A DNA stretch of 64,000 bases from Symbiodinium sp. CCMP2592. Its lineage: Eukaryota > Sar > Dinophyceae > Suessiales > Symbiodiniaceae. The stretch covers positions 62,001-126,000 of the forward strand of contig CAJNDT010005877.1 of assembly GCA_905221615.1 (NCBI GenBank), written 5' to 3'. Every line of letters starts with the position of its first letter. Position 1 is the first letter of the stretch. Shown piece after piece: positions 1 through 52,860 of this stretch. The notes under the pieces were generated by a model, which saw only the letters and a list, made by a program, of their open reading frames with translations, searched no databases and was not told where the DNA came from. Made by a program: the position numbers and the translations under genes.

Positions 1-1
1 C

Positions 2-7714: not shown

Positions 7715-7754
<40 letters not shown>

Positions 7755-7779
7755 GACTACTACTACGACTACTACTACG

Positions 7780-7840: not shown

Positions 7841-7841
<1 letters not shown>

Positions 7842-12212: not shown

Positions 12213-12449
12213 AAGACCTTTCTCACCACTCTTTCTTCGCTCTCGCAACTGGGGGAGTGTACGTACCAGAAAAGCGAAACTTCGGAAAGAGTATTACAGA
12301 TCTGCAGGCTTTACAAATCTTACAAGTCTTTGCCAGAAAAAAGGTCTCATGCAGCAACGAAAAACTACTCTTAACCGCTTCAGTTTATGAATGCATGACC
12401 TCCTTTGGGCCTCTGGACCTTCATCTGGGCTAGCCTGCTTCCCCTATCC
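12213..12449. repeat. direct repeat copy 2 (pairs with 11827-12075)
   Basis: 237 bases, the counterpart of 11827-12075. Its end lies 24 bases from the stop codon side of the recombinase gene. Confidence 0.85.
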
Positions 12450-12804
12450 ACGTCCCCAAGTGTTGCGAAGCGATTACTGTTCCCGTAAGTAACGAATATA
12501 AAAACGTTTGAGAAGAGCCTGGGAGACTTGAAACTGCATCTCGGCTAGCCTTGCTAGGCCGTCTTGGATGTACAGTTTAGCTGTACGCTCCGAAGCCCAG
12601 CGACCCAGGAGTCGCACTGAATCCATGTTGGGGTGTTTCCGCCAGTACATGGTAGCGCCACCTCGTCGCAAACTGTAGGGCCGAAAACCACAAGAAGAAA
12701 CTTGAAGCTCCTGCAGCGCCGCATCAAAATCTTTTCGAAAACAGTCCTCGAAGTTGGCACCAGGTAACTAGAGGGCTGGAAAGCCGTGCCAAAGTTTTTT
12801 TCAC

Positions 12805-12995
12805 CAACAGGTTCAGGCAGGTTCCGGAGCGGTTCCGGGGCGGGCAGGTTCCGGCAGGTTCCGGACGTTCCGGGGCAGGTTGCGGTGAGGTTCCGAAGCA
12901 GGGTCCGGTGATGTTGCGGTGCAAGTCCCCGGTAGAGCTTCCGGCAGGTTCCGGAGCGGTTACGGGGCATGTTCCGACGCAGGTTCCGGTGGTCA
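12805..12995. repeat. ggttccgg minisatellite within the intron
   Basis: The words caggttccgg, gaggttccg and cggggcagg recur about a dozen times with irregular spacing. Confidence 0.8.
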
Positions 12996-13074
12996 TTTGA
13001 CACCTTCGCCGTCGGCTCTTCCTATCATGGAGATGCTGCGTCAGGGTGTAAGGTTTGGGCGTCCAGGGCTTCTT

Positions 13075-14370
13075 TGTAATTGAGCTCCCGAAGCTTCAAA
13101 CCAAACCCGCATGCATGTCCCGAGGCCTGGTAAACGCTTTGCTTGGGTCTCCAACGGCCCTAAACGCATTTTACAGCTTTCTCAGCCTTGCTAATGCCCC
13201 TCCTTGTCCCACTCCCGGGCTGTAATTCAGTTCAGACCGAGCCCAAGTGCATTTCCCGAGGACGCATTTGGCTTGCGTTGCAACAGATCTGGACCTGAAT
13301 GCTGTCCCTAAACCCGAAAATCCTGCTGCACACGCTTTGCTTGGGTCTCCAACGGCCCTAAACACATATTTCAAGCTTGAAAAAACGCATTTTACAGCTT
13401 TCTCAGCCTTGCTAATGCCCCTCGTTGTCCCACTCCCGGGCTGTAATTCAGCTCCCGAAGCTTGAGACCGAGCCCAAATGCATTTCCGAAAATCCTGCTG
13501 CATGCGCTTTGCTTGGGTCGCCAACTGTAATTCAGCTCCGAAGCTTCAGACCGAGCCCAAATGCATTTCCCGAGGCTTGGCCTGCGTTGCAGCAGTGCTC
13601 AACCTCCATGCCGTCGCTAAGCCCGAAAATCCTGCTGCACACGCTTTCCTTTGGTATCCAACGGCCCCAAATGCATTGTCCAAGCCTGGAAAACCGCACT
13701 TTACAGCATTCTTAATCTTGCTAAGGCCCCTCCTGGTCCCAGTCCCGGGCTGTAATTCACCTCCGGAAGCTTCAAACCGAGCCCAAATGCATTTCCCGAG
13801 GCCTGGTAAACGGATTTGGCCTGCGTCGCATTTAGCCTGCTTTGCAGCAGTGCTAATCCTCAATGCCGTCGCTAAACCCGGAAATCCTGCTGCACACGCT
13901 TTACTTTCGTCTCCAACAGCCCCAATACATTGTCCGAGATTTGAAAACCGCATTTACAGCTTTCTTAGCCTTGCTAATGCCCCTCCTGGTCCCAGCGGGC
14001 TGTAATTCAGCTCCTCAAGCTTCAAACCGAGCCCAAATGCATTTCCCGAGGCCTGGTAAACGCATTTGGCTTGCGTTGCAGCAGTGCTAAACCTCCATGC
14101 CGTCGCTAAACCCGAAAATCCTGCTGCACACGCTGTACTTTGGTATCCAACGGCCCCAAATGCATTGTCCAAGCCTGGAAAACCGGATTTTACAGCATTC
14201 TTAGTCTTGCTAATGCCCCTCCTGGGTCCCAGTCCCGGGCTGTAATTCACCTCCGGAAGCTTCAAACCGAGCCTGCATGCATTTCCCGAGGCCCGGTAAA
14301 CGCATTTGGCCTGCGTTGCAGCAGTGCTAAACCTCCATGCCGTCCCTAAACCCGAAATCCTGCTGCACAC
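13075..14370. repeat. satellite of about 220-250 bp units
   Basis: The block ggctgtaattcag (or -cac) followed by aagcttcaaaccgagcccaa recurs near 13217, 13438, 13525, 13747, 13997 and 14238. Each unit also holds cctgctgcacacgctt and tcccgaggcctggtaaacg. One unit near 13525 is shortened. Confidence 0.9.
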
Positions 14371-15079
14371 GCTTACCTTAAGCGAATCAGAATCTTTTGT
14401 TCAATGCCTGCATCTACAGCTCTTTGAGCTTTTCTGGCACCCGTGATTGTGAGCCCGACGACAGCCATTCCGCTGTTGGGGTTATTCAATGGGATTATGC
14501 AAACAGGTGAAACTCTGAGAGTAACTGAGTCATGAGTTCCGGACCTTTGTGACGTTTTCGTAAGTCCCAAACTGATGACAGCGAATTCAAAAGTAGAAGA
14601 TACTTCGATTTGACTGGCTTGTAGCTGCAAAAGCTCACCTGTGCGGAGGAGGCAGTAAACGGCCACCTCAAGTGCCAAAGCTACAGTTGGTTGACCCGAA
14701 AGAAGGAAAAACCGCAAAGACAGTGTAGCAAGTCTTCGGGCGGCGGTGGAGCCCGGTTAGGGACTTCCTTCTTCTGCCACGTCTTGACTAGGCGCCACGA
14801 GAGCGACAAACTGCCTCGGAACCTCGGCCGAAGGTCCTGCAACCCCGACAGCCGTCCGTCGCCAAAGAAAGACTTTCCCCCTGCCGCCACAAATGTTCAA
14901 TGAATTCAGCGAAAATTTGATCGACTCCCTCCGCATCGTCCGGGATCCTGAGTCCCTGCGTCTGAGCATAGAGATAGGCCTCGTATCGTTGTTTGGTGGG
15001 AGAGGCCACCGTATTTGATCGCAAACTCCCTAACGCTGCCTTGCCACCTTTCGTTCCTGCTTTGTTCTGGCCACTACCG

Positions 15080-25951: not shown

Positions 25952-26093
25952 CTTCCGCAAGCACACATTCGAACTTGCCACTGAAGTGCTGTTGGCAGTA
26001 CTCGTTGATTGTGTCCTTCACGATTGCCAGCCCGATCGCATGCAGTACGCTCAGCATGTCTAACGGTGTAGTCAGGCACGGGGCTGGAGTACA
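25952..26093 (-). CDS. 3' part of a host exon interrupted by the LTR element
   Basis: Minus frame DMLSVLHAIGLAIVKDTI...QQHFSGKFECVLAEG, ending at a possible GC donor (GGAAG then GCAAGG; last exon base 25952). The frame stays open up to the target-site duplication at 26089-26093 and continues in the same frame on the other side of the retroelement at 38371-38410, so the insertion split one exon. Function unknown. Confidence 0.5.
26089..26093. repeat. target-site duplication gtaca, left
   Basis: Identical to 38371-38375; 5-bp duplications are usual for copia elements. Confidence 0.9.
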
Positions 26094-26247
26094 TGAAGAT
26101 TCTCAGGCTAACAGCTTAGCACGGCTTGGTACCGGTAAGTCAACCCTGTGGACCTTTTTCCAATGGGGACTTGGGCCAAGTGCGCCTCGCGTACAGACAT
26201 AGCTAAGGACCATAATGCATAGTCATGGAGGCAGGGTAAAATCTACA
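26094..26247 (-). repeat. 3' LTR of the copia-type element (154 bp)
   Basis: Begins tgaagattctc and ends aaatctaca on the plus strand, so TG...CA ends on both strands. Differs from the other LTR by two substitutions and one single-base indel (about 98% identical). Confidence 0.95.
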
Positions 26248-26258
26248 CCCCCTTCGCC
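26248..26258 (-). promoter_or_regulatory. polypurine tract
   Basis: On the minus strand the bases ggcgaaggggg abut the 3' LTR, as expected for the primer of plus-strand DNA synthesis. Confidence 0.7.
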
Positions 26259-26400
26259 GTGCTGCTCGAGCTAAGGCGGACAAGTACATGGCTCCAGGTT
26301 GCCCTGGGCTTCAACGTTTTGTGAAAGACTTGCCAAAGCGAGCATATATAAAGCACAACGGGGAAGCCCTGCAGGTCCGAAGCAAATCAAAATCGAGGAC

Positions 26401-28440
26401 TCAGCGCCTATGGGTGCGGTTCCATGCATCCCACTCGGCCTGAGTGTATCCTCCACGGCGCTGGCGATAATACTCATCCCATTGGGACTGAGTGTAGCCT
26501 CTGTACATTGGCTCAGGGTCCGCAGCACGACCGCGTCCCTTTTGGGATGGGCGATTCTGGGCTGCAGCCTGACGGTTGCGCTCTGCCAAACGTTCCGTTT
26601 GGTGAGTTTGGTCCCGGGCGCTACGGAGGCTATCGGAAATGATTTGGCCGATCTCAGTAGTGATGCCTTCGGTAGTGGTAGCCGACACATAGACCTCGCC
26701 GTCGAAGGTCAGGATCCGTTTCGCAGCATCATTCACTGCGCCCACCTCTGCAAAGAGTCGCGGAGGGAGGAATGCACCCATGTAGGTCAAGCCGATGGGG
26801 ACGTCCGCTGTTTCATCGATGAATTGCAGACTCCGCAACGGCTCCACTTCGCAGTGGGCATAAAAGACGAGCTTCGCAGGCGGGACATTGCCACCACCAT
26901 AATGGGAACCGGCACGCAAGTACCGCTGCTCCTCGCTGCGTCCGGGGTCCGGGAGCACAGCGTTCGCCAGGTGGTCGAACTTTTGCATGTCCTCAATGCT
27001 GCGGCCCTCCTGCATCATCCTCATGCTGAATTGGTTATCATGCTCGAAGCGATAGGACAACGACTCGAAGTTCAGCTTTGCGGCTCTCTGCTTTCGGTCT
27101 TTGGCATCACGGATCACAGCTGCCTCTGCACTCATTTGGCCGCGCTTCTTTGGTCCGTCACCAAGGCCACGAAGATCGCTCGTGAGGAGGTCCTCAATGG
27201 GCTTCTGGGCTCCGGTTGCGGCGGTGGCGAGAAGGCGCTGGCGGAGCCTCGAGTTTTCGAAGACTCGCTTTGTGACCTTTGCTGAATCGTCCGTCTGGGG
27301 AGCCTTGCAGCGGAGGCAGAACAGCATACCATTGGCAACGACTGCTGCGCACTCCCTGCATGGATGCGAGCCAAGTGGGTAAGGCTCGTCTTCACCCGCG
27401 TCCGTCGTGTCGCCCTCCTCCTCCTCGGCCTTAGCCTCGACGTCGGGAGCGAAAACATCAGCATCGGCAGGCTCACCCTCGCGGGTGGCTTCATCCAAGT
27501 CCATGGCGTCGTCCTTTTTGGCAACGGCGGTGGGCTTGGGAGCCACCTTCGGCATCTTCTTTGAAGCAACCGCTTTAGGAGCGATAGCCGCCTGCTTTGG
27601 AGGCGGTGCCGATGATGAGCTTGCTGCCGCCTCCTCATAGTCGCGCTTGGCACGGAAAATGTGCCCTGGCTCACCCTCGCGGGTGGCTTCCTTGTTTTCG
27701 GCGACATACAGGGGGAGGTTCTTCTTGCTGGTGTCGACGGCGGACAGGATACAGTCAGGGGGAACATTGTCGCGAGTGAGAACGCCATCGGTCTCCGTGA
27801 CGAAGAATACACATCCAGCGGCGATCGCGCGCTGCGTGTCGATGGCAAGCTCAATGGGCTGATTGGATCGCATACCACTTTTGTAGTTGGTATCACCCAG
27901 GCGATACGGGGACAGATAGTTGTGGGATCTGTCCGATCGGGCGGAGCCAGCGATCATGCCGTCGCAAAGGATGCCCTTCATGCCCCGCTCATTCGTTCGG
28001 TGATAGAGCTTGGCGGGCGTGTCCTCGCGGGAGAGTACCGTAACCCCCCTCACGCTGCTTTGCAGCTCGGCATCGGCCTGGGACAATCCACTGTAGAACC
28101 GGGTCGCCAGGAAGAAGTCGGCGTCCGGGTTATTGCCGATGAGCTTTTGATTGTGCCCTTGGGCCATTCTCACACGCACGGGGAACAACGGCTGGCCCAG
28201 AGTGTCCTTCATGGGGACATCGATGCCAAGTAGCCTGATTCTCCCCTTGTTATCGGCTTTCGCTGCGCGTAGCAGCTGCCTCACACCCCATCGTGAGTCC
28301 CGGGCGGTGTTGAAGACCTGAAGCAGAGCATCTACGTCTGTCCAACACCCACGGTCAAAGATCAGTGCGGGGAATTCCTCCAAGGCGTGGCCGCGGAGCA
28401 ACTTGGTGAGGAACTTCAAGTCACCGTGCTTAAAAGCCAC
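26401..28440 (-). CDS. Tpt1/KptA RNA 2'-phosphotransferase with zinc ribbon, C-terminal module of the polyprotein
   Basis: 679 open codons. Residues 4-235 follow the Tpt1/KptA plan: N-terminal winged part (LKFLTKLLRGHALEE...GCWTDVDALL), RVRMAQGHN for the RxxQGH motif, LYHRT for the ART-type YHGT motif, RSHNYLS for RxHxHL, and IELAIDTQRAIAAGCVFF...DGVLTRDNVPPDCI for the C-terminal strand-loop. The enzyme class moves a 2'-phosphate from spliced RNA to NAD. The N-terminal catalytic pair R-H is here R16-G-H18, a one-residue insertion. A Pro/Ala/Lys-rich linker leads to a CxxC...CxxC zinc ribbon (C361, C364, C375, C378), then a helical region, and ends with a doubled GYTQxxWD motif. The frame is open to the element's end. 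Continuity with the upstream frame needs one base shift near 28.43 kb. Confidence 0.75.
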   Translation of the reverse strand: MAFKHGDLKFLTKLLRGHALEEFPALIFDRGCWTDVDALLQVFNTARDSRWGVRQLLRAAKADNKGRIRLLGIDVPMKDTLGQPLFPVRVRMAQGHNQKLIGNNPDADFFLATRFYSGLSQADAELQSSVRGVTVLSREDTPAKLYHRTNERGMKGILCDGMIAGSARSDRSHNYLSPYRLGDTNYKSGMRSNQPIELAIDTQRAIAAGCVFFVTETDGVLTRDNVPPDCILSAVDTSKKNLPLYVAENKEATREGEPGHIFRAKRDYEEAAASSSSAPPPKQAAIAPKAVASKKMPKVAPKPTAVAKKDDAMDLDEATREGEPADADVFAPDVEAKAEEEEGDTTDAGEDEPYPLGSHPCRECAAVVANGMLFCLRCKAPQTDDSAKVTKRVFENSRLRQRLLATAATGAQKPIEDLLTSDLRGLGDGPKKRGQMSAEAAVIRDAKDRKQRAAKLNFESLSYRFEHDNQFSMRMMQEGRSIEDMQKFDHLANAVLPDPGRSEEQRYLRAGSHYGGGNVPPAKLVFYAHCEVEPLRSLQFIDETADVPIGLTYMGAFLPPRLFAEVGAVNDAAKRILTFDGEVYVSATTTEGITTEIGQIISDSLRSARDQTHQTERLAERNRQAAAQNRPSQKGRGRAADPEPMYRGYTQSQWDEYYRQRRGGYTQAEWDAWNRTHRR

Positions 28441-29735
28441 GTGCTTGTCGCCACAATGTCCTCCGGGTTGAATGGCTTCATCAGGTGCTTTGCACCATTG
28501 TAGAAATATTCATTCGGAAGCTTCTCTGGCACAGTGGCAGCCCCTTGCGGGGCGCTTTCATCAACGAACATGAGCCTTCGCATGGCGTCCTCATCGCGGT
28601 CAGACTTCTTGGTCTTCTTGGGTGCCGCGGGCTCCATGACTCTGCCCATTGACGATGGGATGGGGTCGACTTTGTCGCCCTCATCAACCAACTCCACTGT
28701 GCCGGGGACACTGTAGGATACCTTACCATCTGCGTCTTGGGTGACGATGTCATTGACGCACTCCGCAACAGCACTCACATCAGTGGTCGCACCGATCCTT
28801 GGCACATCCTTGCGGATGGCTTTATCCATGGGTGGCCCAGCGGCGATCTTGGTGATGTCGTTTGCATCAGCGGCATCAGGGGCTTCCCACATCTTGTCCT
28901 CCTCGGTAACCGGCATTGGTTTCGCCTGCTTCGGGTTCAAGAGCTGATCTCTCTCCTCGCGCCACTGCTGGAAGACATCCTGAAGCACCGGGTTGTTGGC
29001 CCCGGTTCCAGTCTCGAAATGCTCATAGCGGGTAAGCAGGGCCTTGACGCATGGTGCCATTTTCTGGGCAATCCACTCGCTCTTGCTGGCGTTGAAAGTC
29101 GCGGGCAAGTAGGCCTGAAATAACCCGCGGTTTCGAGGATCTTCACTGGCGTGGAAGGAGTCGTACATCTCCAACTTCTCCACTAAGGAGCTCGCCGACT
29201 GCACCTGGAGATTCCGCTGGCGGAATTCCTCAAACATTGCGGCGTTGAAGTCGTTGTACGCCGAGTGGAGTTGGAACAAGTCCGCCTCCACTTGCCCAAT
29301 CACCTTCACAAAACCAATGTCCGGCTCGCCCGCGAGGGCGGCTAACACATCTGCGGCCCGCCTGACCTTCCTTGCAACGGTCTCCGTTGTGACATTGGGA
29401 TCTCTGTATGCGAGTCCCGGTCCAAGCCGTGTGGGGATGCAGCCCCACTGGCCGGAGATCTCGTTTCCACACCACCAACAGATAACGTCGATGATGTGGT
29501 CCGGATAGTTGGCGCGAAGCTCTTTGATGTGTTCCTCGACCTGCCAGACAATCCACGCCAAGGTTTTGCCCCAACACATAGTGTAGCGAGTCTGTGCCCA
29601 TCCTAGCGTCATGCTTGCGATGTTCACTTCCGCATCCAAGTCGGTCTTGACAAACACTCCCCTTCTGTTCTTCTTGCAAAGTGCGGTGGAGCTGTCTGAG
29701 ACGACGATGATGGCTCGCTTGGCCTTGGGGCTCAA
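28416..29735 (-). CDS. possible SGNH-like hydrolase module of the polyprotein
   Basis: 439 open codons directly after the oxygenase module. The start (KRAIIVVSDSSTALC) resembles block I of SGNH/GDSL hydrolases (G-D-S), and VICWWCGNEISGQWGC resembles block III (G-x-N-D/E). A DxxH block V was not identified, so the assignment is tentative. The second half is helical and then acidic and disordered (PSSMGRVMEPAAPKKTKKSDRD region). If correct, it would hydrolyse an ester or acyl bond; the substrate is unknown. The entry frame overlaps the end of the upstream frame and needs a one-base shift (about 29.75 kb). Confidence 0.4.
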   Translation of the reverse strand: MSPKAKRAIIVVSDSSTALCKKNRRGVFVKTDLDAEVNIASMTLGWAQTRYTMCWGKTLAWIVWQVEEHIKELRANYPDHIIDVICWWCGNEISGQWGCIPTRLGPGLAYRDPNVTTETVARKVRRAADVLAALAGEPDIGFVKVIGQVEADLFQLHSAYNDFNAAMFEEFRQRNLQVQSASSLVEKLEMYDSFHASEDPRNRGLFQAYLPATFNASKSEWIAQKMAPCVKALLTRYEHFETGTGANNPVLQDVFQQWREERDQLLNPKQAKPMPVTEEDKMWEAPDAADANDITKIAAGPPMDKAIRKDVPRIGATTDVSAVAECVNDIVTQDADGKVSYSVPGTVELVDEGDKVDPIPSSMGRVMEPAAPKKTKKSDRDEDAMRRLMFVDESAPQGAATVPEKLPNEYFYNGAKHLMKPFNPEDIVATSTWLLSTVT

Positions 29736-31837
29736 CCTTGCGGTTCGTCACTGAGGTCAGCCATCTGGCGCAGCGCAACACAGGATGCATCAGCATGGGT
29801 CAATGACACCCCGGCCGCGCATTGCGTAGATACGCAGGAGTACGCCGACTCCAACATTGCGTACTCGTGATCTGCGCCGAGAGAAATGATGTCGTTGTTG
29901 AGAGCGGCGGATTGGAGAAGGGTCTTCATGGCCTTTGTTACCCCAGTCCTGTCTGCTTCGGCAGTGTTGACCCTGCAGAACTCATCACTCACGACGATGG
30001 CTGCCATCTCGGGGATCGTGGAAGTAGCTTCAGGCAAGTCAGGAAGATCGGAGCCAGCTGAAGTTGCAATGGCAGTCGTGCACATAAAGGGAGCCATGGT
30101 TTCATGGTCAAGGCTTGCAGTTTGTTGTGTGTTTGTGCACTCGAGCGATGTGCGTGCAAACGAATCATTTTCGAAACGAGAACACGGTTTGTTAAGCCTA
30201 CCCCCCTCATCGAGAGGGGAACCAACACATAACCTCAAACAAACCATTGCCTTCTGAGCTGGGAGCTTCAACTGAGCCGTAGGCAAGAGGAACTTTGATT
30301 GATGTATTTTGTTGAACTTCTGGTACCCCCCTGACGAGTAGGCGATAAAAGAATGTCTTTCGCCAGTGTAGGGTTGTACACCATGTCTAGTTGAAGGATG
30401 CAACAGAGTGGGCTTGCGGTATGTATTGCAGTTGCAGCCTTTGTGGTCTTTGCCATGATCATCTGTGTATGTTGCCGGTGGTCCCAATTGACTCGCGCCC
30501 TCAATCCACAGTGTCCCCCCTGTATAATTACCGAAGGAGAACGTCAGATTGTACGATTCTTTCTGGTTGTACTTATCCGTGTGAATACGGGCCTTGCCGT
30601 TGAAGTTGAACACGAACGAAGTCCATGTAAACCCATCCGGAGATGACCGCTTAACAAATTCATTCACATACCTGCAAATCCATGGGAATTGTTTTGTGCG
30701 ATTGGTAATACCAAAGCATCCACCATGGACCCAAGCGCCGAACACCAAGTACTTGGGTATCGTCTCAGAAGCCATAAACGATCGCGGTTTTGCCAATGAT
30801 GCTTTGAGGTTGGTACGTATAAGCCCAGCTTGCTTCTCGAAGGTCTTGAAACTGTAATCGTTAGAGTCGAACGATTGCTTAGCGAAGTCCTCGACGGTCT
30901 TTGCTGCATCCGGAGCTGCTGCTACCGAAACCTTGTTGTCGACCTCGACCTTCGACTCGGGTTTGCACCCGGCTATGTTCGCGCTGGTTGTATGTCCAAT
31001 AAGCTTCAAGGCATGCGTCCACTTGTTCTTTTCAGTGAAGGGCTTCGTAAATACATCCACCACTTGTTCGGCTGTGCCAACATTCAGTAGCTTGAAATGC
31101 CCATTCTCATATTGCTGCTTTAGCCATGAGAAACTCACCCTCTGTGTCCGATCAGTATGTCGTAGAACACCAGCTTGCCCTAGCAACAAAAGGGTAATAG
31201 TTGCTTGATTATCCTCCATATGTCTAACCTCAAAGCTTTCAGGAAGTTGGACACAGAGGCCGTTGATGTCTGCAATCGACAACCCATCCGGTCTAGTGGA
31301 CCCATAACGAATTTCGTCAAGTTCAGGATCAATGCGTGCGACTATTGAATCTACCCTCTCAGCCCTTGGCTCGGCCTTGCGGCCGGCATCTCCACGCCAG
31401 AGGAAATACCACAAGCTCAGGCACGGTAGACCTTCGGCACGTAAACCGTGGTTTGCCGCTACGACTTCGGACTCAGTGGAGCTCATTGTGATCGAAGTTT
31501 GCTTTTTGCTAAAGGCATTGAGTGGGAAGTACATGTTTGGCCCAACCAAAAACATCGCACACCCAGTTGTTGACTTTGAGTCAAACTCACCCGCAAAGTC
31601 GGAATCACTGAACAACCAAAGCCTGCAATCCATGATGCTGTCACCTATGAAACCACTCATTGTGACATGAAGCGTAGAGTTGAGGTAGCAAACCAACCGA
31701 TGAAGTCCCAAGTCGCAATCTGGACTCCACTTGGTCACCCTCGACGCCAAAGACTGCGCTGCCCTTAATAGATCCCATCTTGCCATGCGAGCAGCAAATA
31801 AAATTTTCATCAATACCTTACTTGCGATCGGTTGCAA
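29732..31837 (-). CDS. RNase H plus 2OG-Fe(II) dioxygenase module of the polyprotein
   Basis: 701 open codons. Residues 30-290: copia RNase H (LWLFSDSDFAGEFDSKSTTG, SSTESEVVAANHG, MEDNQAT, LNVGTAEQVVDVFTKPF). After a 90-residue linker comes a complete 2OG-Fe(II) oxygenase core, residues 355-510: YLVFGAWVHGGCFG, ARIHTDKYN with the metal pair H419-x-D421, LTFSFGNYTGGTLWIEG, distal His H485 (PSTRHGVQPYTG) and the 2OG-binding Arg R494 (GERHSFIAYSS). All catalytic residues are kept. The remaining 190 residues are low complexity. RNase H matures the cDNA; the oxygenase is not a standard copia component. Its substrate is unknown; DNA or RNA base oxidation is a possibility by analogy with TET/JBP and AlkB families. 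Confidence 0.8.
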   Translation of the reverse strand: MQPIASKVLMKILFAARMARWDLLRAAQSLASRVTKWSPDCDLGLHRLVCYLNSTLHVTMSGFIGDSIMDCRLWLFSDSDFAGEFDSKSTTGCAMFLVGPNMYFPLNAFSKKQTSITMSSTESEVVAANHGLRAEGLPCLSLWYFLWRGDAGRKAEPRAERVDSIVARIDPELDEIRYGSTRPDGLSIADINGLCVQLPESFEVRHMEDNQATITLLLLGQAGVLRHTDRTQRVSFSWLKQQYENGHFKLLNVGTAEQVVDVFTKPFTEKNKWTHALKLIGHTTSANIAGCKPESKVEVDNKVSVAAAPDAAKTVEDFAKQSFDSNDYSFKTFEKQAGLIRTNLKASLAKPRSFMASETIPKYLVFGAWVHGGCFGITNRTKQFPWICRYVNEFVKRSSPDGFTWTSFVFNFNGKARIHTDKYNQKESYNLTFSFGNYTGGTLWIEGASQLGPPATYTDDHGKDHKGCNCNTYRKPTLLHPSTRHGVQPYTGERHSFIAYSSGGYQKFNKIHQSKFLLPTAQLKLPAQKAMVCLRLCVGSPLDEGGRLNKPCSRFENDSFARTSLECTNTQQTASLDHETMAPFMCTTAIATSAGSDLPDLPEATSTIPEMAAIVVSDEFCRVNTAEADRTGVTKAMKTLLQSAALNNDIISLGADHEYAMLESAYSCVSTQCAAGVSLTHADASCVALRQMADLSDEPQG

Positions 31838-31976
31838 CCGCCCTGCCTTTTCCCCTCAGATGCCGTTGGCAATGCCACGCGAAGCTCATGAAAGGGAGTC
31901 GCAGCTGGTTTCAGGGTTTTGCGCTCAACTTTGGCAAGCTCGCAGTAACGCTCAACACAAGAATCAAGGAAGTCCT

Positions 31977-33340
31977 TCATGTCTTATAAGTGATGCATGT
32001 GACTGGTTTCGTCATTGCACCGGGCTTCGATTTCTGATCTTGCGAAAGAGAGATGAACTTGCTTTGCTTCGCCTCTTTCTTAGCCTCAGACTTGTTACGA
32101 ACCGGCTTACCCTTGCGGGTAGCTGCAACTGCCAGCTCGAAATCAGACTGTTCCCGGCCTGCAAGGTCGAAGTAGGTTTCGCCATCCCACCAATCATCCT
32201 GGAGACGGCGATCGCGCGATTGGTTGCAATTGTCAACAACAACTTCCTCCGACTCACCCTTGCGGGTGGCTCTAGCCACCACCGTGTAACGCCGAGGGCC
32301 AATCCCCGGGAACATTCTAGCATCATCCTCGTTGGGGACATAAAGTCTCTTGCGAGGGTAGCGGTGATGTCGGATTGCTATGAGATTCTCGGGGTCAATA
32401 TCCCAATAATCTTCCTTTCTAGCAGGAGTTACAGCTGAAGTTTCAGGTTCAAGTACATGATGGAATGGATGTGCTTCCTTGGGCAGCTTGAGGTTGTGTT
32501 CTTCCTTGTGCATGCACCCAAAATATCTACCAATGACTTCCGGAAGTTCTTTGTCAATGACGCTCGAAATAAGGTCCCATCCCTCCTTGATAGAGTTCTT
32601 AGGTCCAGCGAGCTTAAAGTCATCGACGTAAACCACTAAGAGCAGCTTCTTCTTCGGGTGGTAGAACACACTCTTCCAAATGTCCGTCAGTACCGCCTCG
32701 AACCCAACTTTCTTTAGTTCAGTTTCACAGTGATGCTCCCAAATCCCCCCTGAATCGGGGTGTCCATAAAGCGCCAATTTGAGTGGGACGACAGGATCTT
32801 TCATACCCTGCCACTCCTTAGGCCAGCGATTGCGAGGCAATCTCACCCAAGTGGCAACTCCTTGGAACAAGGCTTGGGTGTATGCTTGTTTGGCGTCGGC
32901 CTGCTGAATGACATAACCAGGTTGGGAGCCGAAGACGTCTAGGATTTTCACCGCTTCCATAGATGCAGGGCTGCTTGACATCTCCGCGAAGAGCGCGTGG
33001 TCGGCGTTTTCGTCAAGTACTTTGTTTCCCTGAAACACCGAACGTCCCTTATACTTTCGATTAGGGTCACCTTCTTTCAGCTCGGCTCCCTTTAGGGTAC
33101 CAATCTCAAAAACATTGCCAAAATGTACCTTGGTCTGAGACTTCTTAGCTTCGTTGGCAACCGATTCGAACTCCCTAACCTTGCCTTGTACCCAGCAGCC
33201 TTTGTCAACCAATTTCTGCCATTCCTTGTCCATAGCAGCCTGCGCCTTAGGGTTCGATGCGATCTCCTTAGACGACAGGACCTTGGCGACAACAGCATAC
33301 ATCTCATCTGCGATCTGGAAAAGCTTCTTGTCGTATAATC
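31977..33340 (-). CDS. copia reverse transcriptase module
   Basis: Frame open from about 33.34 kb to 31977. Contains the RVT_2 landmarks YKGRSVFQGNKV, QADAKQAYTQA, LYGHPDSGGIWE and the catalytic YVDD (bases 32619-32630) in LLLVVYVDDFKLAG. The tail beyond residue 270 is an insertion typical of dinoflagellate copia RTs and holds two of the embedded hairpins (ATRKGE and ATRKGK). After 31977 the coding shifts frame and continues at about 31.98-31.83 kb (KVLMKILFAARMARWDLL) into RNase H. Confidence 0.85.
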
Positions 33341-33341
33341 C

Positions 33342-35080
33342 CTTAAGTCGTTCCGATGTTCCTCGCTACACCCATGTAGGACTGGCATTGCAGGTACCAC
33401 TTTCACAGCTTCACGGTACAGTGCCTCATTCTCCTCATGTAGCTTCTTCTCATGTTCTGCAATTGCTGTTGCCCTTTGTCTTTTTGACATAGTCTTCCAC
33501 ACAGTATGATCAATGGCGTTGGGGCGGTTCTTGTTGTTCTTTTTGACCAAGCATTCCCCACTCCACACATAACCATGCGGTGGTTCGTGCGCTGCTACTG
33601 CTGCACTGGACTTCAGCTTCTGCTTCACAGAGAACGGAACATCATCAAGCAATGCTGCACGGGAATCAGACTTCGACTCACCCTTGCGGGTGGCTTCTTT
33701 CGCGTCCTTCGGCGGAGGATCTTTATCACGATCAGGGCCAAATAGCTCTGGGAACATTTCATCCAGGTCTTCACTAAGCTGTTCCTGAATTGTGGCTTCA
33801 TCGTATCCCCCCCCTTCCTCCAGAGGAGGATGCGGGTTTTGCTCGTCAAGGACGTTGTGATGTTGTGCATCCAGGCTTGGTGGTTTATCCAAGGCAAGCT
33901 CTTGCAACAAAGGAAACTTAAACTCACCATCAGGCAGCTCCAGTCTCTTGGTGCGAAACACACGTAGGTCACGTAGGTCTTCATTCTCCAACGCGGCTTC
34001 GATGTTGTGTAGGGGAGCAACAACGTACTCAAGCTTGAAGATAAAACCAGGTTGAATGTGACACCCGAGGAATATACCTTCAATCCCTGTGCCAGAAAAC
34101 TTGGATCGTTCAGGCTTGCGTTGCTTCTTCGGGACCCAGTACAGGATTTTCGCTCCAAAGGGAATGCGCATGCCGTTGAACTTCTCACCGTACCTGATTT
34201 CCCACGGAATCTGACCGTTGTCAATCCTCGCAGTGATGTTAAGACACATAGCATGATGTTGCGATGCAAGAGGCCAGTAGCGATCTGGAGTCCTGATTGC
34301 ACTAGATTGGCCCGTGTGCCTTCCAAAATGGTTCTGATTTCTCGTTCGATTACGGCCTTGTTTTCGTTCACGTACTCCCTAGAGGTGTTGTGACGAGCGC
34401 GAAGCTGCCTGGCCGCAAAGTCAAATTCCAACGCGTTGTCGGAATATATAACCTTTACCTCATCATCTGTACCAAGGAAGTGCAACATGTCTTCGTAGCA
34501 CTGCTCACCAGGCTTTGTCTTGGAAGGATACACGTATCTGAACTTAGAATACACGTCCTTCACAACATGAGCCACGGTTTCTTCTTGGAACCCGCAACCC
34601 TTGGCATCAGCAGTCACGATGTGATCTACCGTGATGTGGTCACCGAACGATTTACTGTAGATTGTAGAGGATCCACCAGATTTCCGCGCCTGTGGCGCAT
34701 ACATCTTGGCCCTTTGACAAATGGGGCAGAACGGATTCTTTGGCCTCTGGGTAAGTCGATGTTCCAAAGACACAGCCTCAGCCCTCAAGGAAGCTTCATC
34801 CTTCTTAGACTTTGGCATAGTGTATGGCTCGACATCGCTGTCGGCTTGCGCCTCAACTTCCCCTTCAGGCAAAGCAAACAATGTAATCGTTGCAATAGTC
34901 CCTTCAGGTACTTCCCCATAGAATTCCGTCCAACTCATCAATGTTGAGCGAATCCTCCAACAAAGACCACACGTCATCCTTGAATCCCCAAGTAGTCCGG
35001 ATTCTATACCTCGGGAACTTAGGAGCCGGTGTACGAAATGTCTTTGGGAAATGAGCCACCTTAGCAGCGGGGCTGCCATT
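33342..35080 (-). CDS. copia integrase module (two frames)
   Basis: From about 34.93 kb: HHCC zinc-binding region (SLEHRL...FCPICQRAKM), then the DDE catalytic core: D in GDHITVDHIV (about 34.63 kb), D in VKVIYSDNALEF (about 34.44 kb), and E in NKAVIEREIRTILEGTRANL (about 34.33 kb). A one-base shift near 34.28 kb moves the reading to the next frame, with the GKG-like end (FGAKILYWVPKKQRKP, GIEGIFLGC) and an acidic linker. The order integrase-before-RT identifies a copia (Ty1) element. An embedded hairpin lies in the linker (EATRKGES, 33675-33697). Confidence 0.85.
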
Positions 35081-35590
35081 GATGACCGTCCAACCTGCCT
35101 TTAGCAGTTGCCTTGTTTCCACCCCAGGAATGGGAGGAATACAATTCGCCATCTTTTCGATGGGGTCTTCTGCCACGCCAGCTGGACCTTCAGGTTCATG
35201 TTCATGCTCTCCTCTAGCTGGTGCGGCATGCCCTTGCGGGCAGCTGTTTACCGAAAACCCGAACCGGACTTGACAGACGTCGGTGCAACCTTGCTGCTGT
35301 CAGATTCTGAGGACTTTGCCGCTAAGCATGCCATCAATGGTCCTCGGTCGCCAAATACGGGAACATTGCCTCGGAGTTGGCAAATCATCTTCTGACCGTC
35401 TGGGCAAATGAAATATGGCGCCTCACCCGTAGGCCAGTGGAAAGAGAATCCCTGTTCCATGCACTTCTTTCCTACAGAGCAAACTGCAGGTGTGTTGGGG
35501 GAGCTCAACGAATCGCAATGGGTTCCTCAACGACTCAATGTCGACCTCGTGCTTCGTCTCAGCGTCTACTGGTCCGTTAGCAGTGATCAA
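35080..35590 (-). pseudogene. protease-to-integrase linker, multiply frame-shifted
   Basis: Coding continues through three frames: ELITANGPVDAETKHEV (35.57 kb), then SPNTPAVCSVGKKCMEQGFSFHW (35.5-35.43 kb), then GHAAPARGEHEHEPEGP (35.2 kb) and on to the integrase. SVGKxCxExGxSFxW is, as I recall, a fixed feature downstream of the copia protease in dinoflagellates. One hairpin copy (35225-35246) lies here. Confidence 0.6.
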
Positions 35591-36426
35591 CTCACTGGGT
35601 TGGAAGCAACCTTCTTAGCCTTGCCCTTGAAATGGGCCTCCAAATCAGAGTGACTAATCAAGTCTTCCTCACTACCGGTGTCTGCGATGATTTCGAGGTT
35701 TTCACCTGTCACCGCTGCTGCAGCAAGTTGGGGCAGGGGAATGGCTTCTTTGCAGTGCGTGCAGAATCCTTCTCTACCCCGACACCTGTAGTTGCACTTG
35801 ACCCGAACCTTAAGCCTCATACCGTTCACTGCCGATTCCAAGTGACGGGCATTCTGCAAGGCTTCTTCAGTGTCCTCCGGGTCAGATGGTGGGCATCGGT
35901 CCGCCGACTTGTGCCTGAATTCGTACTTGCGCTTCTCTGTGACGAACCTCCAACCTTCACCCTCAAGCGGAATGTCGATGATCTCTGGCCTCAGGAATTG
36001 GACCTTATTTTTGGTCCCAGACTTCACGGCATGGCCCTTGCGGGCTGCTACTGCGTAGGATTTCCCAGCACTGGACGAGGGCTCACCCGTGAGGGTGGCT
36101 GCAATGGAGAGGCAACAAGCTGCTGTCTTCTCCTCGCTCTTTGCCCTCTTTTTGCTAGGTCGCCTGCGCTTGCCGGAAGGCGATCTCTTGCCGTCCTTGC
36201 CGGACTTGTCACCCTTGGCCGGGACAGACGGGCTGGCGTCCTTATGCATAAACGGGCAATTCTTCCCGTTTTTGCAGGTGCCTTTGGGATAGAAGATGCA
36301 TGGGATCTTGGAGGTGTCCTTCTTATCCCCGCCTTTACCGCCTTTACCTCCACCTTTTCTCGAAGGGGTTCGAGGGGGAGTTTTCTGCCCCTGGTCTGTT
36401 CTGGCTTCACGTGCTTGTAAGGGCAC
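35587..36426 (-). CDS. Gag C-terminus with CCCH finger and aspartic protease
   Basis: Residues 30-65 include a CCCH finger (CIFYPKGTCKNGKNCPFMH, C-x7-C-x5-C-x3-H). A Lys/Ser-rich basic linker follows, then a region ending in the retropepsin active site DTGS (bases 35671-35682, IIADTGSEEDLIS). The protease would cleave the polyprotein. Joined to the preceding frame by a shift near 36.39 kb at a run of four A (minus strand). Confidence 0.8.
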   Translation of the reverse strand: MPLQAREARTDQGQKTPPRTPSRKGGGKGGKGGDKKDTSKIPCIFYPKGTCKNGKNCPFMHKDASPSVPAKGDKSGKDGKRSPSGKRRRPSKKRAKSEEKTAACCLSIAATLTGEPSSSAGKSYAVAARKGHAVKSGTKNKVQFLRPEIIDIPLEGEGWRFVTEKRKYEFRHKSADRCPPSDPEDTEEALQNARHLESAVNGMRLKVRVKCNYRCRGREGFCTHCKEAIPLPQLAAAAVTGENLEIIADTGSEEDLISHSDLEAHFKGKAKKVASNPVS

Positions 36427-36830
36427 TTGTCACCTCGTGGGCATTTGCCCCGCTGGAAAGCGTGGCACGGCTTGTCCTGGCTTCTACCGCGAGGGGTGTT
36501 CGGAGCATCGGAAGGGGCAGGGGCACCAAACTTGGCGCCGTGAGCCTTGGCGATTGCTGATCGGTTCTTTCGGGTCCTATCCCTTGCCAACAGCTCTTTA
36601 ACGCATTTGACCAGATAGTCATAAGTGCGTTGATCCGTCCCTTCCTTAGCCCTGTCGTAGACTTCCAGATCAAACTTAAGCTTGCTTGAGTTGCGAAGCT
36701 GTCGTAACAAGATGTCCCTCAAGGTTGTTTCCTCCGGCTGGTGGTTCAATCCTGCAATGACCGATTCCCAGTTGTGAATGAAGGTACTAAGGTCGTCACC
36801 ACTCAGCTGGACCTTGAGGAGGTCTTCTAC
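36390..36830 (-). CDS. Gag central part with CCCH finger
   Basis: Helical capsid-like part (EDLLKVQLSGDDLSTFIHNW, RDILLRQLRNSSKLKFDLEVY, YDYLVKCVKELLARD) followed by a CCCH finger (CHAFQRGKCPRGDKCPYKH). CCCH fingers stand where most copia elements have a CCHC knuckle. Connected to the upstream gag frame by a one-base shift near 36.84 kb. Confidence 0.75.
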
Positions 36831-37600
36831 AGAGTATAGAGGGATCCTGCTTCTTCATTCGTCTTAAAGTAGTGTTCGAACATCAGTAGAACTTGCCTAC
36901 CTCGAACCGCCCTACCTGCAGCTGCCTCAGACTCCTTGTAATTAATGATCTGTCGTCCCAAATCACCCCTGGCAACTCGCGAAAGCGCCGAAAGAATCTT
37001 CGTGTCCAAAGTGAGGAACTTGCCAGTGTCCCTCAACTTCTCCGAATCAGCGTCCCTCGAGTAAACCTCTTGAACCCATTGGAATGCCTCATCGGGTTTG
37101 TCCGATGCCGCCCGGACTGCCTCCCTAACCGTGATCTTCCAACTCCTGTAAGTCTCCGGGTTGGGGAAGTCGGGTAGCTTCACAGTCTCAGCTTCCTTAG
37201 CCTTGGGTTTGTCATCATCGGGCTTCTGGATAACTGACTTGCGTGCTTCAGCAAGGAGCACGCTTGGTTCTTTGTTTTCACTGGTGTTTGCCGGTTCTTT
37301 GTTGTCACTCTGTTCAGCAGTAGACACCTCTACGCCGGGGCCCTTTGTGTCTTCAGGCTCGGTAATGTCAAACCGTTGGGTCCTTCCCAAAACAGTCCGA
37401 AGCGACGCAGGAATTTCCCTGGGGTTCGGTAGGGTCGGAATCCACGAACTACTAGGACCCTGAACAAGCGGCGCAGTGGCACCACCTTGCAGTGGGCTTG
37501 GTTGAAGCTTGGAGCTCTCACTGGGATCAACTTTCACCGGCACGGCGCCACCTTGCGGTGAGGTCAATGTCTTCCTGAATGACCCCCGCATCCAGAGTGC
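36827..37600 (-). CDS. Gag N-terminal/capsid part
   Basis: Begins at or near an ATG at 37593 (MRGSFRKT); the frame is open up to an ATG at 37672 but those first residues lack protein character and overlap the antisense coiled-coil ORF. A Pro/Ser-rich stretch leads to the capsid start (KLPDFPNPETYRSWKITVRE) and AFQWVQEVYSRD, DLGRQIINYKESEAAAG. Structural protein of the virus-like particle. Confidence 0.75.
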   Translation of the reverse strand, partial: ALWMRGSFRKTLTSPQGGAVPVKVDPSESSKLQPSPLQGGATAPLVQGPSSSWIPTLPNPREIPASLRTVLGRTQRFDITEPEDTKGPGVEVSTAEQSDNKEPANTSENKEPSVLLAEARKSVIQKPDDDKPKAKEAETVKLPDFPNPETYRSWKITVREAVRAASDKPDEAFQWVQEVYSRDADSEKLRDTGKFLTLDTKILSALSRVARGDLGRQIINYKESEAAAGRAVRGRQVLLMFEHYFKTNEEAGSLYTL

Positions 37601-38212
37601 GTTGGAGCTTCGAGCAGAACAAAGACACCGCTTCGCATTGGACAACGTGTACGCCGAAGCCAACGCATACATCGCACATCTAGAAGCAACAGCGGACGCG
37701 AACCATCGTCAGCAGCTGGCATTCGTGAGCCAATCCACACACCTACTGGTGGGGCAACTTCACAACGAAGTCCGAGTGCTAGAGACAATCGCCCGTGCAG
37801 AACAACGCACAGCGAATGAGCTGCAGGCACAGCTGGCACGCACACAAAGGGAAAGTCATGATGAACGGTCGTTGGCTATGCAGTTTGATGCACATCGATC
37901 CGAGCTGGAAGCAGCAGCACGCACGCTCACTGCCGAAAACAGACAGCAAGAGCACCGTTTCGCGGAAATGCGCGCATCCTTCGACGAAAACCATAGTGAA
38001 CTTATAGCCTTTTTGGGTTCCGAGTTTGAGGAAAAGCTTCAGTGGGAAGAAAATGAATTCCAGTGTGGGCTCACCTCTGAGGACAGCAGTACGACAACTT
38101 GGTTGACGACCTGCAGGATCGAAATGCTGAGCTTATAGCTGAGGTCAACTCCCTAAGGACTGTCTTGTCGACAGCGCAAAGTAGCCCCCATTACGGAGCA
38201 AACTACCGCTGA
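37560..38212 (+). CDS. antisense coiled-coil ORF between 5' LTR and gag
   Basis: Plus-strand reading frame with strong coding character: DPRIQSALELRAEQRH, YAEANAYIAHLEATAD, HNEVRVLETIARAEQRTANE, RSELEAAARTLTAENRQ, HSELIAFLGSEFEEKLQWEE. After one base shift near 38.08 kb it continues as QYDNLVDDLQDRNAELIAEV and SLRTVLSTAQ to a TGA at 38210-38212, six bases before the LTR. It is a long dimerising coiled coil of about 215 residues with no ATG at its start. Coiled coils like this normally form the Gag N-terminus in these elements (memory); here it points the other way, so either the gag 5' part is inverted or the element has an antisense gene. Confidence 0.65.
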
Positions 38213-38217
38213 TAACC
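38192..38217 (-). promoter_or_regulatory. possible primer-binding site
   Basis: On the minus strand ggttatcagcggtag follows the 5' LTR directly and shares tatcag with the initiator-tRNA site tggtatcagagc used by many plant copia elements. The leading T is absent, and the same bases encode the end of the antisense ORF, so this is tentative. Confidence 0.35.
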
Positions 38218-38370
38218 TGAAGATTCTCAGGCTAACAGCTTAGCACGGCTTGGTACCGGTAAGTCAACCCTGTGGACCTTTTTCCAATGGGGACTTGGGC
38301 CAAGTGCGCGTCGCGTACAGACATAGCTAAGGACCATAAGAATAGTCATGGAGGCAGGGTAAAATCTACA
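38218..38370 (-). repeat. 5' LTR of the copia-type element (153 bp)
   Basis: Counterpart of 26094-26247; TG...CA ends. For a minus-strand element this is the promoter-bearing LTR. No TATA box is obvious. Confidence 0.95.
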
Positions 38371-38410
38371 GTACATTGCAGTCGTCTTTCGCTTGCTCGT
38401 GTCACTACTA
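38371..38410 (-). CDS. 5' part of the interrupted host exon
   Basis: The first five bases are the right target duplication gtaca. The minus frame (ALVVTRASERRLQ) leads in phase into the coding at 26093-25952 if the element and one duplication copy are disregarded. The upstream splice site is unclear. Confidence 0.4.
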
Positions 38411-50443: not shown

Positions 50444-50989
50444 AATTGGCCCAGGTTTTCTTTTGGTATGTATTTTGTTATGGTTTTATTTTGGTATTTT
50501 TTGTGGTTTTCTGGGTCTGGATTGCAAAAAACCCTGTAAGGGTCACACGGAGGGGCCTGATTCGGGATTTTTTCTGGTATGTGTTTATGGTTTTCTGGGC
50601 CTGGATTGTCGAGAACTTGCACCGTGTATGATATATCTGGAACACTCGAAACTTTCGAGAAGAAACACGTGATTGACGCAATTCCTTCTTGACGAAGAGT
50701 TATGTGGTTGACGGAATTCTTCTTGACGGCAAGCCATGCACGGCATAAAAAGAAAGCGGGCGGTTGAGCAGCCCCCCCCAGTTGCAAACCCAATGTACAT
50801 ATGCATCAAGTTCATATGGACTCTGCATTTGTTGGCAGAATGATGTTTGAAGCGAGCTTGCGCGGTTTGATGAAGCGGGGACCCCCCTTTTTGCCTATGA
50901 TGGACCCGGAACACTTGAAAATTTCAAGAAGAATTATGAAATGCCCCCCCCCCGGTTTGCAAACGCAATGCAAAAGCGGACCGGCGATT

Positions 50990-51815
50990 CATCACATCTT
51001 AAGCACACGCCCTCATTTGGCGATTGGGGTACACCATAGATATGACTATACCACATATCTTGGACACGCCCCCGTATTTGGTAATTCCGGTTCACCATAT
51101 ATCTTTAACACGCCCCCTAGTTCGGCGATAACCGTCCACCATATGTCTTAAACATGCCCCCTCTTTTGGTGATATTGGTTCATCATATATCCTGAACTCG
51201 CCCATCATTCGGCGATAGCCTTTCACCATATATGTTAAAACACGCCCCTCTTTTGGTGATAACGGCTCATCATATGCGTATGTATATATATATATATGTA
51301 TATACATATCTTTAACGCGCCCCCTCTTTTGGTCATTTTAGCTCATATCAGCTCATTATATATATCTTAAACACGCCCCCTGATTCGGCAATTCCGGTTC
51401 ATCATATATCCTCAACACGCCCCCTCGTTTGGCGGTTCCGGTTCTCCATATCTCTTAAACACGCCCCCTGATTCGGCGATTCCAGTTCATCATATTATCT
51501 CAAACACGCCCCCTCATTTGGCGATTCCGGTACCCCACATCCCCCTCCTCGTTTGGTTGTTTTGGTTCATTATATATCTTCAACCATATATCTGAAGAAC
51601 GCCCCTGATTTGGTAGTTCCGGTTCACCATATCCAAAGCACGCCCCCTTATTTGGTAATTCCGGGTCATCCTATATGTTGAACACGCCCCCTCAATTGGC
51701 GATAACGGTTCAACATACATGTTAAACATGTCCCCTCATTCGGCCATAGCGGTTCATGATACGTCTTAAACTAGCCCCTCATCTGGAGATTCCGGATCAC
51801 CATATATCATATCAC

Positions 51816-51847
<32 letters not shown>

Positions 51848-52860
51848 CTGAAGCACGCCCCAAGTTCACTACGGGGCTGAAGAAAGCGGGGGGGTTGGGG
51901 GGCGCAGCTCCCCCCCCATTTGGAAACGCACTAAGCACCCCCCCTTGTTTGGTATTTCCCGGTCAGCCCATAGCTTAAACACGCCACCCTCAATTGGCGA
52001 TAACAGTTCAACATACATGAGAAACACGCCCCCTCATTTGGCGATAACGGTTCATAATGCGTGTTACACAACCCCGCTCATTTGGCGATTCCGGTTCACC
52101 ACATATATATATATACACATCTCTTAAGCACACCCCTTATTTGGCAATTTCGCTTCACCATATACGTCTTTAGCACTCCCTCATTCGGCGTAAACCGTTC
52201 ACCGTATATGTTAGCTTGCGCGGCCCAAACATAAAGCGAGGGGGGTTGGGCCCCTGGGACGGGAATTGAAAAGTCTCACAATAGTTATGCGCTTGACTTG
52301 CTGCGACCATCGCATATGGCCGAATAGCGTTCCTGATGGTACGAAGTTCGCTAAAGAAAAACAGGGCTTAAGAAAGCGGGGGGGGGGGAGATGTCTGGGT
52401 GCCCCTCCATTTGCAAACGCACTTGCAAGAGGACCGGCGGTTCATCACATCTTAAGCACGCGCCCTCATTTGTCGAAACCGGTTCACCGTAGATTATGCA
52501 AAAAATTCTTCGACACACCCCTTTTCGGTTCACCATATATCTTCAACACGCCCCTCTTTTGGTGATAACGGCTCATCATAATATCTTCAACCCCCTCATT
52601 CGGCGATTCCGGTTCACCAGATATCTTTGACACGCGCCCGCATTCACCCATAGGCCCATAACCGTTCACCAAATATCTTAAACACGCCCCCCTCTTGTGG
52701 CGATTCCGTCTCAACATATATCTTTAACACGCCCCCTCTTTTGGTGATAACGGCTCATCGTCTATCTTAAACACGCCCCCTGATTCGGCTGGTTCCGGTT
52801 CATCATATACCTCAAACACGCCCCCTCTTTTGGCGATTCCGAGTCTCCGGTACCCCATGC
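50990..52860. repeat. 45-bp satellite, roughly 35 units
   Basis: Consensus by eye: cacgccccctcatttggcga followed by ttccggttcaccatatatcttaaa. Units alternate between ctcatttggcg and ctcttttggtg forms and are interrupted at about 51.88-51.93 and 52.23-52.43 kb by a guanine-run segment (gaaagcgggggggttgggg). Short (AT)n tracts at 51283-51300 and 51820-51848. Confidence 0.9.

Follow-up and report, generated by a model that had tools for sequence, protein, structure and literature searches.

A long terminal repeat (LTR) retrotransposon with copia gene order lies on the minus strand, from 38370 to 26094, of a 64,000-nucleotide stretch of the genome of the dinoflagellate Symbiodinium sp. CCMP2592 (contig CAJNDT010005877.1; the whole stretch is called the window below). 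The 5' LTR (38218–38370, -) is 153 bp and the 3' LTR (26094–26247, -) 154 bp long. Both have TG...CA ends and, by self-comparison, they differ by two substitutions and one gap. Direct repeats of the target site (gtaca on the plus strand, TGTAC on the minus strand) occupy 38371–38375 at the 5' side and 26089–26093 at the 3' side. The presumed primer-binding region is assigned by its position directly inside the 5' LTR (38203–38217, -), and the polypurine tract GAAGGGGG (26248–26255, -) directly precedes the 3' LTR. The LTR pair, the duplication and the tract had been claimed in an earlier, sequence-only reading of this DNA, and all were found as described there.

The Gag region (36048–37708, -; pieces 36827–37708 and 36048–36854) includes the first of two CCCH zinc fingers, the second being located together with the aspartic protease motif IIADTG at 35587–36429 (-); these assignments come from reading frames, Pfam and pattern searches. 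Integrase is represented by a motif-based first piece (34379–35100, -) and by a second piece in another frame (33368–34378, -), which contains its C-terminal part and the linker to reverse transcriptase. Reverse transcriptase (31977–33365, -) carries YVDD and matches the Pfam profile RVT_2 (6.7e-11); a motif-based RNase H follows (31078–31855, -). Further downstream are three enzyme-like domains, hereafter the cargo: a 2-oxoglutarate (2OG)-Fe(II) oxygenase-like domain with HxD, GGxxW and GxR motifs (30176–30868, -), an SGNH-hydrolase-like domain with SDS, CGNE and DSFH blocks (28938–29747, -) and a Tpt1/KptA RNA 2'-phosphotransferase domain (27700–28509, -), which matches the Pfam profile PTS_2-RNA (1.2e-13). 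The C-terminal region (26404–27699, -) has the zinc ribbon CREC...CLRC that had been predicted beside Tpt1. The final stop codon is at 26401–26403, so the coding end predicted about 150 bases before the 3' LTR is measured at 153. Coding after RNase H amounts to about 1,560 codons in the window copy, close to the 1,600 expected; the Tpt1 part of the predicted three-enzyme set is confirmed by Pfam, and the 2OG and SGNH parts stay motif-based.

The RVT_2 and PTS_2-RNA matches are both better than the Pfam cut-off. A Pfam search of the element pieces gave nothing above cut-off for aspartic protease, integrase or RNase H, and the integrase piece had a weak NCBIfam match to IS481 (0.0054, far below cut-off); these pieces are assigned to the enzymes named by their motifs. 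The predicted order gag-protease-integrase-reverse transcriptase-RNase H thus stands, with a profile match for reverse transcriptase and motif assignments for the other three enzymes. The hallmarks of Ty1/copia elements are present (LTR pair, target duplication, polypurine tract and integrase upstream of an RVT_2 reverse transcriptase), and gene order together with the RVT_2 profile argues for this affiliation, integrase being placed by motif and order. A CCHC knuckle is usual in Ty1/copia Gag, though not an absolute criterion, and was not found in this Gag by the pattern searched. The window copy consists of ten stop-free pieces spread over three frames, not of one open frame. In each of nine segments the coding frame has higher codon scores than any of the five remaining frames; since the codon scale was trained on six of them, the three cargo segments alone constitute the independent test.

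The window element belongs to a multi-copy family of LTR retrotransposons, about 12 kb long, that was active recently. In the 1,098-Mb assembly that contains the window, matches to the LTR number at least 40 (of 122 candidates, 40 were scored), and many of them are paired about 12 kb apart. Ten other full-length copies, taken as halves, and parts of four more make up the 14 related copies considered here; a further locus (L038, on contig C2224), where the one flank sampled held no element, is excluded from the 14, as the element may sit on the other flank. LTR pairs differ by 0–2 substitutions in 11 of 11 other copies, five of these pairs being identical and one of the rest being separated also by an 11-column gap. 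The 5-bp target duplications are perfect in all 11 other copies checked. The near identity of the LTRs and the perfect duplications indicate recent activity of the family, LTR divergence (two substitutions in 153 bases in the window) being a coarse clock. The description of the window element as young holds in this sense for its insertion, but its own frames are broken. In relatives, the longest unbroken frames reach 1,036 codons for Gag-protease and, inside one 3' half, 2,005 codons, so the breaks in the window copy are due to decay or assembly error of that copy; several relatives carry frame breaks too.

The cargo is fixed in the family and selectively maintained: the 2OG-oxygenase-like domain, the SGNH-hydrolase-like domain, then Tpt1 with its zinc ribbon. 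Instead of full-length relatives lacking the modules, which the sequence-only reading had named as the contrary case, all three modules were found in 12 of the 14 related copies of the same genome. These comprise all 10 full-length copies, in some of which the cargo is in two pieces, and two of the four partial ones. The two exceptions are a copy sampled only as far as part of the SGNH-like domain and an internally deleted copy without Tpt1. A private insertion of the cargo is ruled out by this distribution.

Selection was estimated as the Nei–Gojobori ratio of nonsynonymous to synonymous divergence (dN/dS), averaged over 55 pairs from 11 copies; the pairs share history, and the values are averages rather than independent tests. 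Mean dN/dS is 0.155 for the 2OG-like domain, 0.087 for the SGNH-like domain and 0.068 for Tpt1, compared with 0.033 for integrase, 0.045 for reverse transcriptase and 0.031 for RNase H. The N-terminal piece of Gag (0.237) and the CCCH-protease piece (0.139), the linkers after the 2OG-like (0.256) and SGNH-like (0.096) domains and the C-terminal region (0.106) complete the series. All cargo domains are under purifying selection; in the proposed comparison with reverse transcriptase they are constrained (0.068–0.155 versus 0.045). Evolution of the cargo without constraint is ruled out by mean values of 0.07–0.16. Mean dS is uneven, from 0.22–0.39 between integrase and the linker after the 2OG-like domain to 0.51–0.79 from the SGNH-like domain to the end. 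The stretch from SGNH to the 3' end thus has about double the synonymous divergence of the integrase–reverse transcriptase–2OG part, a difference that may reflect synonymous constraint in the core or mosaic exchange between lineages.

The Tpt1/KptA identity is firm: the domain scores 51.9–55.4 bits against a Pfam cut-off of 26 and also has NCBIfam and PDB matches to Tpt1 enzymes. When aligned with three other Tpt1 domains of the genome, it keeps Arg, Arg-x-x-Gln-Gly-His, His-x-Thr and Ser-Gly-x-Arg. The other two domains were named by motif. A 2OG-Fe(II) oxygenase has HxD...H and a distal Arg in a double-stranded beta-helix, and the blocks of an SGNH hydrolase are GDS, GxND and DxxH. HxD, GGxxW and GxR are invariant over eight element copies and a homologous open reading frame (ORF) in a neighbouring long interspersed nuclear element (LINE); the second iron-binding His lies outside the invariant columns of this alignment. 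The LINE homologue shares 24% identity with the 2OG-like domain (E 6e-11, single comparison) and itself has a weak PHROGs match to 2OG enzymes (0.39). The SDS, CGNE and DSFH blocks of the SGNH-like domain are invariant in eight copies. Each of the two alignments (A3 and A4) held eight of the 11 element copies then used, L016 being excluded from A4 for a stop. Invariant motif residues and purifying selection suggest a 2OG enzyme, with the homologous LINE ORF as further evidence, and likewise suggest an SGNH enzyme. Scans of viral contigs with four element pieces gave no relatives, nor did a phage tblastn search with the 2OG-like and SGNH-like domains. The catalytic tetrad of Tpt1 is Arg-His-Arg-Arg (PMC6333775). 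Its three Arg are kept in the element; in the window copy, as in two others inspected, the His is displaced by one position (RGH).

The sense strand of the element contains 16 copies of one hairpin motif, A-GC-N5-GCRA-N5'-W-GY-C, distributed from gag across the cargo as far as the 3' untranslated region. All are on the minus strand and were located by a scan and a covariance model. Hairpins 1 to 3 are at 37479–37497, 36081–36099 (loop TCAC) and 35226–35244, hairpins 4 to 6 at 34827–34845, 33676–33694 and 32252–32270, and hairpin 7, with a compensatory change among copies, at 32105–32123. Hairpin 8 (31369–31387) is inside the RNase H piece; hairpins 9 to 12 occupy 30955–30973, 29324–29342 (loop TCGC), 28802–28820 and 28537–28555. 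Hairpins 13 to 15 follow at 27669–27687, 27471–27489 and 26841–26859, and hairpin 16 (26291–26309) is past the last stop codon. The stems vary in sequence and retain complementarity. The preceding base is A in 14 of 16 copies, the bulge is A in 12 and T in four, the last C is present in all 16, and the loop is of GNRA type in 14 and TCRC in two.

The scan, shaped after the first copies were seen, imposed a 7-bp stem, a single bulged base on the 3' side and a loop of four bases, so pairing was required, and the loop sequence, bulge base and flanks were left free. It gave 25 matches on the sense strand, 14 of them with GNRA loops, and seven and none, respectively, on the antisense strand. In 200 dinucleotide shuffles the mean was 7.4 hairpins (maximum 16), with GNRA loops in 0.355 (maximum 3). 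The rest of the window (51.7 kb, both strands) had 80 hairpins, four with GNRA. A covariance model built from the 16 hairpins recovers its own members at 27.5 bits or more, by construction; the next best match inside the element scores 16.2 bits and the best outside it 11.3 bits. The 16.2-bit match, at 36028–36049 (-) near the protease, is a shorter variant of the hairpin and falls in a part of the element that is conserved among copies. The model finds 18 separate sites in each of two other copies, with the overlap counted once, and counts per copy are 15–19 before removal of one or two double counts from the overlap of the halves. Other loci of the genome, 89,817 bases in all, contain no copy of the motif. 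A general trait of the surrounding DNA is ruled out, there being no such hairpin elsewhere in the window or in those bases. The commonest hairpin had no matches in a viral-contig scan and a prokaryote-genome scan. In Rfam no match reached the gathering threshold, and the one weak match obtained is unrelated.

The hairpins are conserved as nucleic acid. In 500 synonymous-codon shuffles that kept protein and codon usage, a mean of 0.15 motifs and a maximum of two arose, whereas the real frames contain 15. In the comparison of 11 copies, hairpin columns diverge by 0.81% in the 5' half and 1.27% in the 3' half, while all columns diverge by 9.6% and 11.3% and the hairpin flanks by 7.8% and 10.0%; relative to the element, divergence at the hairpins is thus reduced 9- to 12-fold. 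Of 2000 sets of randomly placed blocks, none reached so low a value in either half. This test covered six of the eight aligned sites of the 5' half and all 12 of the 3' half; of the two sites omitted, one had the motif in five of 11 copies (gapped alignment) and the other in two of 11 (cut end of the half). Sites were picked if at least one copy had the motif, and motif-less copies were counted wherever aligned. In hairpin 7 a G-C pair of seven copies is replaced by A-T in four, a compensatory change; five of the remaining stem variants give G-U, and at a few hairpin sites one copy has a gap. Twelve hairpins start in one codon phase of the assigned frames and three in another, where different peptides are encoded. 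Two of the 12 fall where pieces overlap, and the other piece provides an alternative reading of them. Sense RNA is favoured over DNA by the side of the bulge and by the GNRA-type loops in 14 of 16 copies, features that point to action of the hairpin at the level of sense RNA.

Related modules occur in other repeats of the genome; neither this spread nor the hairpin array figures in the sequence-only reading. A search with the Pfam profile PTS_2-RNA gave 1,550 first-look candidates, 150 of which were scored, with 152 matches, all those listed being above cut-off. Tpt1 domains are massively amplified in this genome, and their carriers include two or more further repeat families, of which one is a LINE. 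Two Tpt1 groups were inspected, by one and two loci. At L050, Tpt1 is in a 1,501-residue frame with Exo_endo_phos, followed by an RVT_1 frame, which identifies a LINE. At L049, a 665-residue frame combines a weak PARP-like match (2.7e-4, below cut-off) with Tpt1 and adjoins an ORF resembling one in the LINE of the window (26%, 4e-9); L051 has the same pair of frames. The 665-residue frame occupies L049:2715-4709 and L051:3542-5536, with Tpt1 C-terminal and the PARP-like match checked on L049; this repeat protein could possibly unite two ADP-ribosyl-transfer domains. Near-identical 665-residue frames occur among L039-L051, and three matches on contig C890 are spaced 10.1 kb apart, which suggests a tandem array. 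Near the 665-residue repeat, L051:3-2561 (-) encodes another retroelement polyprotein, judged by motifs: a CCHC knuckle, a protease DSG and an integrase zinc finger. The LINE next to the copia-order element extends from L029, which has Exo_endo_phos and RVT_1, into window positions 1–3877 (+), its 3' part. This part includes a UCH-type protease domain (1137–2420) and, with a frame break, the 2OG-like ORF (2929–3877) homologous to the cargo of the element.

These results could be united in a model, given about an even chance, in which the maintained cargo of the family acts in cis in the particle and the hairpins serve as dispersed packaging sites. The element would be translated as Gag-protease and integrase-reverse transcriptase-RNase H-cargo polyproteins. 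The cargo would be packaged in the particle with the RNA and would work on the element's own RNA or complementary DNA (cDNA). Tpt1 would remove 2'-phosphates from RNA or cDNA ends or ADP-ribosylate them, the 2OG enzyme would oxidize a methylated or otherwise modified base, and the SGNH domain would be an esterase, a kind of enzyme also encoded by non-LTR retrotransposons of the CR1/L2 types. Along the genomic RNA the hairpins would provide scattered binding sites, with the CCCH fingers of Gag as the simplest reader, and would tag this RNA for packaging. As in known packaging signals, a recurrent stem-loop with common recognition features is found throughout the array. By this analogy the hairpins are probably multi-site RNA recognition elements with the CCCH Gag as their natural reader. 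The cargo most likely acts on element RNA or cDNA, with Tpt1 at RNA ends. The sequence-only reading had proposed that it would modify the element's RNA or DNA, or host chromatin.

Several observations weigh against this model. No hairpin was found in the 2OG-bearing LINE or in the Tpt1 repeats examined; therefore, hairpins and cargo need not be linked. The element Tpt1 has Arg-Gly-His at the Arg-His of the tetrad and HRT at HGT, so its activity may differ from that of the classical Tpt1 enzyme. The 2OG-like and SGNH-like domains have no relevant match in Pfam, PHROGs or PDB, where weak matches to unrelated families were obtained, and the structure predictions are poor (mean pLDDT 33 for the 2OG region and 40 for the SGNH region). 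The window copy itself is frame-broken. The complete pairing of the 16 stems is a circular statistic, as pairing was the search criterion, four stem variants among copies break a pair, and other stretches of the element are conserved too. The TCRC loops are GNRA when read on the opposite strand, so a DNA-level role is possible. The common codon phase of 12 of the 15 coding hairpins is unpredicted by packaging alone.

This common phase leaves room for a translational role. The hairpins could serve translation or RNA stability instead of packaging, for instance by causing pausing or frameshifting between domains or by recruiting a host RNA-binding protein to the benefit of the element. That 12 of 16 are in one codon phase and three in a second, and that many fall between recognisable domains, favours such a role; however, one hairpin lies 3' of the last stop, frames continue through the other 15, and hairpin 8 is within the RNase H piece, which makes this explanation rather unlikely, although a serious competitor. 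The same phase would suit a conserved peptide (A-x4-E-P), for example a polyprotein cleavage site, with the hairpin as a by-product of codon choice, and ATR(K/E)G(E/K)(P/S) is indeed encoded at five sites. A peptide-only account is nevertheless ruled out, because synonymous shuffles abolish the motif (15 observed, maximum two), the second phase gives S-x-x-Q-G-x-A and one copy is non-coding; the peptide explanation as a whole is considered highly improbable. Scarcely more probable is the origin of the hairpins as insertions of a tiny palindromic mobile element or as introner-like relics. They are short, palindromic and repeated, with GC...GC at the ends, and introners that carry inverted and direct repeats have been reported from dinoflagellates (PMC7789003), but the stems differ and still pair, the bulge is always on the same side, the sites are common to copies that differ by up to 18% in the 3' half, and the 89,817 bases of other loci have none. 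Rather than spliced introns with repeats, the 15 coding hairpins are sites common to the copies through which the frames are read.

The cargo could alternatively serve the host, or target host chromatin or DNA, for instance by thymine or cytosine oxidation, rather than element RNA. The methyltransferases of dinoflagellate retrotransposons, reported to methylate DNA (PMC5890265), make this conceivable, but Tpt1 is known as an RNA-end enzyme (PMC6333775) and the AlkB of orchid Gypsy elements acts on RNA (PMC9289625), so host or DNA targets seem improbable without being far-fetched. Somewhat better placed, although still short of the packaging model, is a broader idea based on the occurrence of Tpt1 in at least three repeat families and of 2OG-like domains in a copia-order element and a LINE. 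RNA-end and base chemistry would then be a standard kit of retrotransposons in this genome, complemented here by a hairpin code of about 18 sites, read by the CCCH Gag or by a cargo enzyme for recognition and protection of self RNA.

The general kind of element is known, since a methyltransferase (PMC5890265), an AlkB (PMC9289625) and an esterase (PMC3905857) encoded by retrotransposons precede it. SymbioLINE-Dnmt and SymbioDIRS-Dnmt3 (PMC5890265) are likewise multi-copy dinoflagellate retrotransposons encoding a nucleic-acid-modifying enzyme with key residues kept; they are a LINE and a DIRS element with a single cytosine methyltransferase, whereas the present family has LTRs, three other enzyme-like domains and the hairpin array. 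Orchid Ty3/Gypsy elements are LTR retrotransposons with a 2OG-family enzyme too, of AlkB type, which is encoded in an additional ORF and demethylates m6A in vitro (PMC9289625). Here, in contrast, the 2OG-like domain follows RNase H in the same coding region, has no Pfam match and is accompanied by SGNH and Tpt1. The plant screen of the same paper reports 15 unusual domains in Gypsy, not Copia, elements, and fixed extra domains in LTR retrotransposons are deemed rare there (PMC9289625). The element-encoded esterase of non-LTR retrotransposons (PMC3905857) is in the first ORF of a LINE, in contrast to the motif-assigned SGNH-like domain near the C end of an LTR coding region. Tpt1/KptA/TRPT1 enzymes (PMC6333775) share the PTS_2-RNA profile with Arg, Arg-x-x-Gln-Gly-His, His-x-Thr and Ser-Gly-x-Arg; the element domain differs in its Arg-Gly-His and HRT and in its position within a retrotransposon coding region. 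Dispersed packaging signals of single-stranded RNA viruses, such as MS2 (PMC6281560), also comprise many stem-loops with common loop and bulge features. Those of the present array, known from sequence alone, belong to a retrotransposon, have a GCRA loop with a 3' W bulge and are more uniform in motif.

Among the literature matches listed, judged by title and the start of the abstract, the three-enzyme combination, Tpt1 in an LTR element and the hairpin array were not found; nor did those matches describe hairpin-based self-marking in LTR retrotransposons. That purifying selection maintains a three-domain, enzyme-like cargo in a family with recent activity indicates that such cargo can last in the life cycle, and the hairpin array offers a directly testable handle on RNA recognition by LTR retrotransposons. 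The role of Tpt1, an enzyme of fungal tRNA splicing, is elsewhere an open question (PMC6333775), and its spread across repeats could help to explain Tpt1 function beyond that process. Outside the element, self-comparison of the window revealed other short repeat arrays at 7715–7841, 11827–14379 and 50956–52841.

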